NCBI RefSeq assembly: GCF_030295975.1 | Contig: NZ_AP027364.1 | Coordinates: forward strand, 3,968,001-4,032,000 | Source of the DNA: Thalassotalea atypica | Lineage (GTDB): Bacteria; Pseudomonadota; Gammaproteobacteria; Enterobacterales; Alteromonadaceae | Direction of reading: 5' to 3' | DNA: 64,000 bases | Part shown: piece after piece, positions 44,821 through 47,844 of the stretch | Layout: every line of letters begins with the position of its first letter | Numbering within the stretch: the first letter of the stretch is position 1 | The notes under the pieces: generated by a model | What the model was told of the DNA's origin: nothing | Database searches by the model: none | The model's input: only the letters and a program-made list of their open reading frames with translations | Position numbers and translations under genes: made by a program

Positions 44821-46077
44821 ATGTTAAAGCACTCAATGTTAGCCACAGCAATCTTATTAAGTCTATCTGCTCAGGCCGCACAACCAACACCAAAAATTAA
44901 AACACTTAACTTATCTGAATCTGCACGTATAGTCGGAGGCGAAGCGTCCACTGAAAACGCTCGACCGTATCAAGTGTCAGTGCAAAGCGCCGACGGTTAT
45001 CACTTTTGTGGCGGTTCTATTGTTGCTCAAGACTTAGTACTAACTGCAGCACACTGTATGGAAGGTGTTGATGGTGAATCACCAGAAATGCAGGTGCGTG
45101 TTGGAACAACGTCATTATCAGGTAATTCAGGTGAAACAATTAACGTCGCCAAAACATACACTAACCAAGAGTACCCGAACCTTTCAAAAGACGTTGCGAT
45201 ATTAAAACTTGAAAAAAATATTACCCACGCAAACGCCAAACCCGTGAAACTTGTCGATCAAAGCTTTGTCGATGCCAATATCAGCGCTGGAACGTCATTA
45301 GTCGTTTCAGGCTGGGGAACCCTTAGCTCTGGTGGTCAATCTCCAGATAAACTGATGGAAGTTACCGTGCCATTTGTGACCAATGACGTATGTAACAGCA
45401 ATGAAGCTTATGGTGGCCAAGTTCAAGATACTGAAATGTGTGCAGGACTGAAACAAGGCGGTAAAGATTCTTGCCAAGGCGATAGCGGTGGGCCATTGGT
45501 ATTTGAAAAGAATAATGAATATTACCAAGTTGGTGTTGTTAGCTGGGGCGAAGGCTGTGCTGCAGCCGATAAATACGGCGTATACGGTGATGTAGCAAAA
45601 CTACGTGGTTGGATAGACAGCGCCATGTCGGGCAATGAGCCAGTATCTGGTTTACCAAGTGATGGCTCAGGCGGTGACTCTGAAGATGGAGATTACTCAG
45701 ATGAAACCTTTATCGCTTTTCAGGAAAAAATTAGCTACACCGTAGGAGAAGAACAACTGCAATTTGTGTTAGACGTACCTGAAGGCATCAACGTAATTTA
45801 CATTGCAACAACAGGTGGCGAAGGTGATGTTGATATTACTGCTGAACGCGTGCCAACAGAAGAAAACCAGGATGTTGAAAGCGATGGTTGGGATGATAAT
45901 GACAATTGGGACGATTGGGGTGACTACTGGGATACGCCAGTCAGCTTTTATGCCTCGGAAACTCCAGGAAATGATGAAATGCTAATGATTGAAGTGCCTG
46001 AGTCAGGCGAATGGATAATTTCATTCAGTAACTTTAGTGACTTTAGCGACGTAGAGCTAACCGTGTTTGTTCACTAA
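44821..46077 (+). CDS. Secreted trypsin-like serine protease (S1A) with C-terminal domain
   Basis: 418 aa. Signal peptide (1-20), a short propeptide and the activation site RIVGG (36-40), as in trypsin zymogens. The triad is His78 (TAAHC), Asp124 (KDVAIL) and Ser222 (CQGDSGGP), with Asp216 at the bottom of the specificity pocket, so cleavage after Arg or Lys is expected. Cys pairs (HFCGG/AAHC and others) match animal-type trypsins. After about residue 270 comes a Gly/Ser/Asp linker and a PPC-like beta domain containing a Trp/Asp-rich run (DGWDDNDNWDDWGDYWD). Divergent from the RstB-like operon. Confidence 0.9.
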   Translation: MLKHSMLATAILLSLSAQAAQPTPKIKTLNLSESARIVGGEASTENARPYQVSVQSADGYHFCGGSIVAQDLVLTAAHCMEGVDGESPEMQVRVGTTSLSGNSGETINVAKTYTNQEYPNLSKDVAILKLEKNITHANAKPVKLVDQSFVDANISAGTSLVVSGWGTLSSGGQSPDKLMEVTVPFVTNDVCNSNEAYGGQVQDTEMCAGLKQGGKDSCQGDSGGPLVFEKNNEYYQVGVVSWGEGCAAADKYGVYGDVAKLRGWIDSAMSGNEPVSGLPSDGSGGDSEDGDYSDETFIAFQEKISYTVGEEQLQFVLDVPEGINVIYIATTGGEGDVDITAERVPTEENQDVESDGWDDNDNWDDWGDYWDTPVSFYASETPGNDEMLMIEVPESGEWIISFSNFSDFSDVELTVFVH

Positions 46078-46097: not shown

Positions 46098-46130
46098 CTA
46101 GGGCGTTGAAATATCCCCTTCACGCCCTAG
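46098..46130 (+). terminator. Probable terminator of the trypsin-like protease gene
   Basis: CTAGGGCGTTGAA pairs with TTCACGCCCTAG with one bulged base, followed by a moderately T-rich stretch, 20 bp after the stop codon. Confidence 0.6.
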
Positions 46131-46138
46131 CTGTTTGT

Positions 46139-46171
46139 TTATTCGATATTCTGGATCTGCTCACGCATTTC
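46139..46171 (-). pseudogene. Remnant of a second yicC 3' end (last ten codons plus stop)
   Basis: The minus strand encodes EMREQIQNIE and a stop, the same last nine residues as yicC at 46981. Over 32 bp (46139-46170 against 46981-47012) 27 bases are identical and the five differences are all synonymous third-position changes. It starts 8 bp after the yceH stop and similarity ends there. This is a coding relic, not chance; it marks a recombination or integration junction at the yicC 3' end with yceH in between. Confidence 0.8.
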
Positions 46172-46178
46172 CCATCTG

Positions 46179-46850
46179 TTACTTATCTTCAATTAGCTCA
46201 GTTAAGCACTGGACTTGTTCAGTTAAGGCTGCAACTTGCTTTTCTAACTCTGATACTCTTTGTACTAACTGAGGTTGTTGCTCAGCGCTGGTATTTTCCG
46301 CTTGTATTACATTAGTGCTAGCTAAATCGAGCTCATTGATATCGGTAAATAAGTGTACATAACGTGAATCGCGTTTACCTGGTTCTCGTGCCAGTTTCTT
46401 AACGAGTACATCGCCTTTTAAGTCTTGTAATTGCTGCAAGGTAGCTTCAACTTCATTTACATCTGCAAAGTCAGCTAGACGGCTCGTGCGCGTTCTTAAT
46501 TCACCAGGAGTTTGTGGCCCTCTTAGCAGTAACACGCAAATAATAGCTCTTTGCTGAGAGGTAAAATTTAAGTGTCCAAATTCAGTATTACAAAAGCGAT
46601 GGAAATACTTATTTACTCGAACAGACGCTTTGCGGTCTATCATTAATTGATTCATGTCCACCAATTCATCAATTAGATTTTGTACATCACTTTCAGAAAA
46701 ACTGGTTACTGGCTCTCGATTGCTTTTTTGATTGCAGCCAATAGTAAGGCCATTTAAAGAGAGTGGGTATTGTTCTGGTGTGGTAATTTCTTTTTCCAAC
46801 ATCACGCCAATAACGCGGCATTGGTCAGCGGATAATGTGATCATTTGCAA
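46179..46850 (-). CDS. yceH: YceH family protein (DUF480)
   Basis: 223 aa cytoplasmic protein with two tandem winged-helix-like domains: VIGVMLEKEITTPEQYPLSLN, then CNQKSNREPVTSF, and RAIICVLLLRGPQTPGELR, all diagnostic of YceH/DUF480. A C-terminal coiled coil (VSELEKQVAALTEQVQCL) ends it. No biochemical function is established. It is enclosed between the intact yicC 3' end and a yicC 3'-end remnant, so its position may be the result of an integration or recombination event. Confidence 0.92.
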   Translation of the reverse strand: MQMITLSADQCRVIGVMLEKEITTPEQYPLSLNGLTIGCNQKSNREPVTSFSESDVQNLIDELVDMNQLMIDRKASVRVNKYFHRFCNTEFGHLNFTSQQRAIICVLLLRGPQTPGELRTRTSRLADFADVNEVEATLQQLQDLKGDVLVKKLAREPGKRDSRYVHLFTDINELDLASTNVIQAENTSAEQQPQLVQRVSELEKQVAALTEQVQCLTELIEDK

Positions 46851-46927
46851 TTGCTCTCTATAAAATATCTATCGCTGTTATATCAAGTGACACTTATTTT
46901 TACTACGCTAAAGAGATAATTATCGAA

Positions 46928-46957
46928 AAAAAAGCCATAGCAAACTATGGCTTTTTT
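46928..46957 (-). terminator. Rho-independent terminator after yicC
   Basis: AAAAAAGCCATAG / CTATGGCTTTTTT, 13-bp perfect stem with a 4-nt loop, and T-runs on both strands. It is 24 bp after the yicC stop. Confidence 0.88.
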
Positions 46958-46980
46958 CAATCATAAAATTCTGTAAGCTA

Positions 46981-47844
46981 TTATTCAATATTTTGAATTT
47001 GCTCGCGCATTTGCTCAATCAATACTTTCAATTCCACGGCAGCGTTGGTGATATCAGCATTGATTGACTTTGACCCTAAGGTATTAGCTTCACGGTTGAA
47101 TTCTTGCATCATGAAATCTAAACGGCGACCTTGTGGTCCACCCTTTTTCAATGTAGCTCGGGTTTCTTTAACGTGACTAAATAAACGGTCGATCTCTTCA
47201 TCAACGTCCATTTTTTGCGCCAGCAAAACAAGCTCTTGTTCAACACGACCAGAGTCCGGCTCTAAACCTGCGTCGTTAAATTTTTCGATGATTCGGTTAC
47301 GTTGCCATTCAATAATTTCTGGCATGTGGGCTTTAACCTTTTCAGACTCTGCGACAATGCCGTCTAAGCGCTGTTCGATAAGCACTTTCATGTTATCGCC
47401 TTCGCGCCCTCTCGCTTCTTTAAAGTCAGCTAAGGCTTGGTCAAAACCTGCTAATAAGTCCGCTTGAACAGCATTCATGTCAGTTTCTTCAGTTTCCATC
47501 ACGCCAGGCCAGCGCATCACTTCAAGCGGGTTGATTTGGCTATTGAGTGTTTGTTCATTAACCCAATTGGCATGCTGAATTAACTGCTCAGCTAAGTTTT
47601 TGTTGATGGATAAGTTGCCTTTGGCGGCAGGGTTTGCATTAAAGCGAAGGTTGCATTCTACTTTGCCTCGGTTAAGCGCTTTTCTAAAACGCTCACGTAG
47701 TACCGGTTCAATACCTCTAAATTGCTCGGGTAATCTGAAATAAGTTTCTAAAAATCGTTGATTAACCGAGCGAATTTCCCAAACGGCGTTGCCCCACTCA
47801 CCTTTAATTTCTTGGCGAGCAAATGCGGTCATACTATGGATCAT
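46981..47844 (-). CDS. yicC: YicC family endoribonuclease
   Basis: 287 aa with the family start MIHSMTAFARQE and WEIRSVNQRFLE, and the C-terminal domain LDFMMQEFNREANTLGSKS followed by VELKVLIEQMREQIQNIE, the most conserved part. YicC proteins are RNA endonucleases. Full length and intact. Its 3' end is duplicated as a remnant at 46139, and in vibrios the yicC 3' end is a known integration site for mobilisable genomic islands, which bears on the origin of that remnant. Confidence 0.95.
   Translation of the reverse strand: MIHSMTAFARQEIKGEWGNAVWEIRSVNQRFLETYFRLPEQFRGIEPVLRERFRKALNRGKVECNLRFNANPAAKGNLSINKNLAEQLIQHANWVNEQTLNSQINPLEVMRWPGVMETEETDMNAVQADLLAGFDQALADFKEARGREGDNMKVLIEQRLDGIVAESEKVKAHMPEIIEWQRNRIIEKFNDAGLEPDSGRVEQELVLLAQKMDVDEEIDRLFSHVKETRATLKKGGPQGRRLDFMMQEFNREANTLGSKSINADITNAAVELKVLIEQMREQIQNIE

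Follow-up and report, generated by a model that had tools for sequence, protein, structure and literature searches.

A yceH gene between two yicC ends in Thalassotalea atypica: a probable integrase-less relic of island traffic at yicC

In Thalassotalea atypica the gene yceH stands directly behind yicC and is itself followed by a second copy of the yicC 3' end, which raises the question of how one gene came to lie between two ends of the same target gene. The locus was examined within a window of 64,000 nucleotides, the whole stretch of DNA analysed here, and compared with genomes of the same family. Its features are as follows.

44821..46077, plus strand: trypsin-like protease gene, which adjoins yicC in the congener G001
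46098..46130, no strand assigned: putative hairpin in the gap separating the displaced end and the trypsin gene, seen by eye in the sequence
46139..46171, minus strand: displaced yicC 3' end, right repeat copy (putative attR position), from alignment and weight matrix
46172..46178, minus strand: junction of 7 bases from the yceH stop to the yicC-end copy, from the sequence
46179..46844, minus strand: yceH (DUF480), acquired horizontally; Pfam PF04337, 1.8e-55
46928..46957, minus strand: terminator-like inverted repeat between yicC and yceH (inverted repeat I4)
46981..47013, minus strand: intact yicC 3' end, left repeat copy (putative attL position), CAAATTCAA form
46981..47844, minus strand: yicC, intact, mostly of the host-genus (g1) type, an ORF of 287 aa

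The displaced yicC 3' end at 46139-46171 (minus strand) is GAAATGCGTGAGCAGATCCAGAATATCGAATAA and encodes EMREQIQNIE-stop, and the intact end at 46981-47013 (minus strand) encodes QMREQIQNIE-stop. The two are identical at 27/33 bases and share their last nine residues; the runner-up ungapped match to the yicC end, on both strands of the 64-kb window, reached 23/33. A weight matrix built from the last 24 nt of 74 yicC ends, that of T. atypica included, gave the displaced end 40.3 bits and the intact T. atypica end 33.9 bits, with a median of 37.4 (range 25.2-41.0) for native ends and a maximum of 10.2 for the reverse-strand control across loci. By the same matrix no further displaced yicC end was found in the 64-kb window, where the third-best site scored 1.5 bits. 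A second yicC end on this strand had been recognised in a previous sequence-only reading of the locus, and alignment and matrix both bear it out. Its 27 matching bases stand, over an aligned length of 33 and not 32, and the five silent changes that it described hold within the nine codons MREQIQNIE, while a sixth change, at the first base, turns Q into E.

The two ends lie 842 bp apart in the same orientation, which suggests that attL and attR of one site have been retained. As the same reading had stated, yceH alone lies between them: Pfam assigns it to DUF480, and it is the sole ORF of at least 60 aa on its strand in the interval, starting at an ATG at 46844 with a TTG upstream at 46850 likewise open. 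A hairpin resembling the yicC-yceH terminator was also read by eye in the sequences of G047, G090, G149, G186, G069 and G013, and at the matching junction G047 has 10 bases, partly alike, and then AATGCGTGA. The six congeners carry CAGATCCA at the yicC end, compared with CAAATTCAA in the intact end of T. atypica.

The congener G001 shows what the site looks like when empty. Its yicC adjoins the same trypsin gene (77% protein identity with T. atypica across residues 16-418) and has one yicC end and no yceH, as had been expected of a relative lacking the gene at this identical junction. The trypsin gene lies 61 nt from the displaced stop in T. atypica and 67 nt from the yicC stop in G001; the non-coding stretch before it has diverged between the two, except close to trypsin. 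The single yicC end and the shared neighbour in G001 thus indicate that the insertion took place at the 3' end of yicC. No match to yceH was found in any of the six congeners, and the gene is present in 98/246 family genomes. We compared 74 yicC loci, that of T. atypica and those of 73 relatives, taken from the 246 genomes by a yicC identity of 76% or more (G078, whose yicC is a fragment, omitted); several of these loci end early at contig ends, five of them less than 2 kb behind yicC. In 12/74 loci yceH is codirectional with yicC and starts less than 200 nt beyond the yicC stop (T. atypica, G047, G090, G149, G186, G069, G153, G250, G073, G194, G252 and G013); in others it lies about 1 to 30 kb behind yicC, and in many elsewhere in the genome. 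With yceH in 98 of the 246 genomes and behind yicC in 12 of the 74 loci, the data do not show a layout fixed across the order with vertically inherited yceH.

The trees place yceH and its host in different company. The host's genus is denoted g1, and g42 and g64 are two other genera, g42 the larger. In the yceH tree the T. atypica protein clusters with those of six genomes, five from g42 and one from g64 (support 100/97). In the RpoB tree, which covers 28/30 genomes (G005 and G069 gave none), T. atypica belongs to g1 (98/97) as its basal member (87/95) and g42 falls inside another clade; constraining T. atypica with g42 was rejected (p 0.00061). With these two missing, the comparison does not extend to g64. 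This conflict indicates that yceH came from outside the host genus by horizontal acquisition. T. atypica and G047 are 82.8% identical in yceH and 81.2% in yicC, a residual that is the second-largest among 276 pairs, which are not independent of each other; between G047 and four genomes of its genus, yceH is 76.0-85.1% and yicC 90.9-93.7% identical. Nesting of the T. atypica gene inside g42 received 96/89 in one tree, was not reproduced in a second, and its placement outside g42 was not rejected by the AU test (p 0.31); the claim is therefore limited to the grouping with g42 plus g64. The sequence-only reading had proposed comparing yceH with core genes in phylogeny and codon usage, and the conflict with RpoB answers the first of these. 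Composition proved uninformative as a transfer signal: the GC content of yceH (39.6%) is close to that of the window (39.4%) and its GC3 (31.5%) is close to those of five neighbour genes (32.6-41.0), so the gene looks ordinary on both counts.

We then consider the site itself, which relatives use for integration. A profile built from 16 candidate integrases detected a yicC-type tyrosine recombinase frame, whole or broken, within 700 nt behind the yicC stop at 21/74 loci, compared with 2/74 for an earlier regular expression. Displaced yicC ends scoring more than 11.5 bits, one or more per locus, occur at 17/74 loci, counting those of T. atypica and G250 and the decayed end of G047. In a Pfam scan the integrase candidates had the arm-binding and central domains in 9/9 cases and the catalytic domain in 8/9; the one lacking it, from G119, is the first piece of an integrase gene broken by stops. 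The yicC islands of the relatives carry a tyrosine integrase of about 400 aa adjoining yicC, and in G004, G206, G168, G237, G161, G123, G147 and G190 the integrase stands at the yicC side with a displaced end at the far side. This is the island layout that had been suggested as worth searching for, and three congeners (G002, G004 and G006) have such an integrase. These results mark the 3' end of yicC as a crowded integration site in the family. In G168, G206 and G237, yceH begins 128, 159 and 176 nt, respectively, behind the displaced end; this order of yicC, integrase island, yicC end and yceH implies that islands probably split yicC from yceH, and it may represent a composite carrier. Segments with two yicC ends and no integrase by profile were found in G250 (0.8 kb), G239 (2.2 kb) and G176 (4.2 kb), with larger ones in G229 (14.6 kb) and G069 (17.6 kb); an integrase frame opens 138 nt behind the displaced end in G239 and 167 nt behind it in G176.

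Several further observations were made at these sites. In G239 (locus L132), the 2.2-kb segment, at 0-2245 nt behind the yicC stop, holds a 533-aa ORF and is followed by the integrase, and is perhaps a second small passenger at yicC. The displaced ends of L094, L132, L149, L032, L144 and L118 form a second class with ATTCAGATCC or similar (IQIQNIE) where the others carry AAGCAGATCC or GAGCAGATCC, which suggests that the integrases acting on this one target differ in their attP arms. The yicC islands of L120 (G119) and L118 (G062) have fragmented integrase genes, with displaced yicC ends still present. In G014, yicC lies near the start of contig C19 (229-1089), and a further yicC end (88% across 41 codons) lies at 2-124, the start of contig C3, perhaps an island broken by assembly.

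At the T. atypica unit, the profile found no yicC-type integrase in the 7 kb searched behind yicC, in keeping with the earlier statement that none is left, and the 842-bp interval holds no yicC-specific tyrosine integrase. Searched against the T. atypica genome, the G002 integrase gave three matches of 25-28% identity, all elsewhere. The unit has counterparts in the clade from which yceH appears to derive. A decayed yicC end lies directly behind the yceH stop in G047 (score 50), G186 (33) and G069 (25), that is, in 3/6 genomes grouping with T. atypica yceH; of 40,000 random stretches, genuine yicC ends included, 39, 95 and 178 reached these respective scores. In a relic scan of 31 loci, four stood out besides T. 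atypica (G047, G069, G250 and G186) and 26 did not. Among about 300 background stretches, those as good or better amounted to 0 for G047, 0 for G069, 0.3% for G250 (stretch taken at the end of the yceH frame) and 0.7% for G186. In the same 31-locus scan a yicC end behind yceH was not recognisable in G090, G149, G168 and G237. A scan of 80 loci, partly from the same genomes, additionally returned Ca. Colwellia aromaticivorans (28) and NORP29 (32), which are suggestive only, given 80 tries. Across 17 bases, AGATCCAGAATATCGAA, the displaced T. atypica copy is identical to the G047 relic.

The same order of yicC, yceH and yicC end also occurs in another genus, in G250 (L147), at 143-823 nt behind the yicC stop. 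Here the yceH frame runs into the displaced yicC end and closes within it (EQVRKQIQNIE-stop), so that the end of the target gene supplies the yceH stop codon. A match to the post-yicC sequence of G128 starts in the yicC end of G250 and runs about 70 nt past it (75.7% over 107 nt in all). The decayed ends behind yceH in half of the source-clade genomes suggest that yceH probably travelled as an att-bounded unit. As this order is already found, decayed, in part of that clade, the unit probably came in small, rather than as a large island decaying in T. atypica. None of the 74 loci, several of which end early at contig ends, showed an island in which one pair of ends encloses both an integrase and yceH. 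The sequence-only reading had offered a decayed island or a swap by homologous recombination; a small unit recombining at yicC agrees with these data, and decay of a large island in place probably does not.

Taken together, we read the 842-bp unit, composed of a yicC end, a terminator, yceH and a second yicC end, as an integrase-less, att-bounded, CIME-like relic of yicC island traffic, with a probability of about 65%. An integrase specific for yicC, encoded by a neighbouring island or by a helper in the donor, would have excised a circle or composite with yceH between two yicC ends. The excised DNA would have entered the T. atypica lineage and integrated at its only yicC end; an integrase island that came along, if there was one, would have left later by recombination of its bounding ends, the end product being yicC, yceH and a yicC end. 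Since the last residues encoded are the same at both ends, yicC could have remained intact at every step. The integrase route for the import is what we infer; put most cautiously, the recipient's one yicC end recombined with a unit that had a yicC end on either side.

This reading has to be weighed against three others. That the copy is a chance likeness, or that the yicC end was duplicated in tandem long ago without transfer, is extremely improbable: only the shortness of the copy speaks for either, against a score of 40.3 bits where the control maximum is 10.2, the empty site in G001, the displaced ends accompanied by integrases in relatives, and the conflict between the yceH and RpoB trees. 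A different history, compatible with entry by integrase or by RecA, would start from an older transfer that gave the ancestor of the genus the arrangement of yicC, yceH, yicC end and trypsin gene, the other congeners having deleted yceH between the two yicC ends and kept one end, as in G001. Since T. atypica branches first in its genus by RpoB (87/95), the gene may have been gained on its own branch, or earlier, in the ancestor of the genus, and lost afterwards, and deletion between direct repeats would yield the G001 junction. We nevertheless consider such loss unlikely, since the end copy must then have stayed intact in T. atypica while decaying in g42 and g64, and the transfer shown by the trees would still be required.

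The main rival to the integrase route is RecA-mediated exchange with a yicC-yceH donor that already had the second yicC end, homology being provided by yicC and the 33-bp end; we regard it as a real possibility, short of probable. In its favour, part of the source clade has an end copy behind yceH, and the displaced copy is identical to the G047 relic along AGATCCAGAATATCGAA, as would be expected had the copy arrived with donor DNA. The difference between the two ends inside CAGATC points the same way. This motif is common to several island end pairs and is not identical in the left end, CAAATTCAA, and the right end, CAGATCCAG, of T. atypica, so an integrase would need to have crossed over in GAGCA or in AATAT/GAATAA. 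Nucleotide identity along yicC was discarded as a tract signal, being saturated at 72.7-77.1% to all 20 sequences compared; we turned for that reason to the positions that distinguish g1 from g42, which give a mixed picture. At 25 such amino-acid sites the T. atypica protein is g1-like at 14, g42-like at 6 and neither at 5, and at 59 nucleotide sites the gene is g1-like at 35 and g42-like at 19. The g42-like nucleotides, which include nt 544-547, 556 and 822, lie inside yicC and so may mark donor tracts of the kind that homologous recombination leaves. Against RecA, most separating sites are g1-like, including the last three (nt 850, 851 and 858; the preceding one, 822, is g42-like), and the site is one occupied by integrases. 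RecA would have little to work with in 33 bp of imperfectly matching sequence. The g1-like last sites of yicC and the 17-base identity with G047 give a hint of an exchange near the yicC stop codon, and an exchange in GAGCA fits too. Conservation of an att core at the DNA level was not a usable criterion: codons 280-285 have a synonymous entropy of 0.54 (mean 0.73 over 184 codons), only the sixth-lowest window, with lower ones at codons 10-18 and 115-127.

Integrase-free elements bounded by att sites have been described as CIMEs, which keep attL and attR of one site and have lost the integration and transfer genes, derive from an ICE or IME by deletion, and move by accretion with an element at the same site (as set out in PMC5704250). 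The T. atypica unit resembles them in sitting at a gene's 3' end with an apparent att-like end on either side, in having no integrase or transfer genes, and in lying at a site that gathers integrase elements, some in tandem. It differs in its size of about 842 bp with one gene and in having no integrase island beside it in T. atypica; a larger ICE or IME is a hypothetical ancestor. Layouts with neighbouring elements at yicC were seen in G168, G237, G239 and G176, and the integrase-free yicC segments of the relatives resemble the CIMEs in tandem with integrative elements that PMC5704250 describes.

MGIVflInd1-type islands reportedly restore the last yicC codons upon integration. They have an excisionase gene and an oriT that mimics that of SXT/R391. 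As for published yicC-specific islands, PMC8409611 describes the MGIVflInd1 group and SGI1-like yicC elements, PMC5704250 also names MGIVflInd1, and PMC8978831 reports GISpuPO1, GISspANA3 and GIPspSM9913; two Shewanella islands are reported to have 21-bp att sites (PMC8409611 / PMC8978831). The T. atypica unit shares their target, the yicC 3' end, and differs in lacking an integrase and carrying yceH as its sole cargo; the integration site and the integrase domains of the relatives' islands are what would link this locus to the MGIVflInd1 type. In Dehalococcoides, repeats of the target end bound segments at ssrA, some of them integrase-free and described as possible cis-mobilisable elements (PMC3146451). 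The likeness lies in integrase-free segments bounded by repeats of the target gene's end, and the difference in the target, ssrA and not yicC, and in a serine rather than a tyrosine recombinase. Within the literature searched, no paper mentions both yceH and yicC. Islands at yicC are thus well known, and T. atypica presents a new and very small case of that kind.

A bolder interpretation, which we hold to be rather unlikely, is that yceH and its flanking yicC ends form a self-contained passenger. This would be a mobile unit of 842 bp with one gene and no recombinase, through which foreign yicC integrases move one ordinary chromosomal gene between genera, apparently with two separate landings, in T. 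atypica and in G250. The locus suggests that attachment-site traffic can carry single core-like genes and leave almost no trace; with so little left behind, such transfers would be missed when genomes are screened for integrases or for long islands. Footprints of this kind can be sought cheaply by scanning for displaced ends of known target genes, and at a site used as heavily in the family as yicC the many displaced ends could serve to order insertions. Elsewhere in the window, at 1943-37533, an apparent large polysaccharide gene cluster was noted by eye, with glycosyltransferases, nucleotide-sugar epimerases and a chain-length/kinase-like protein.
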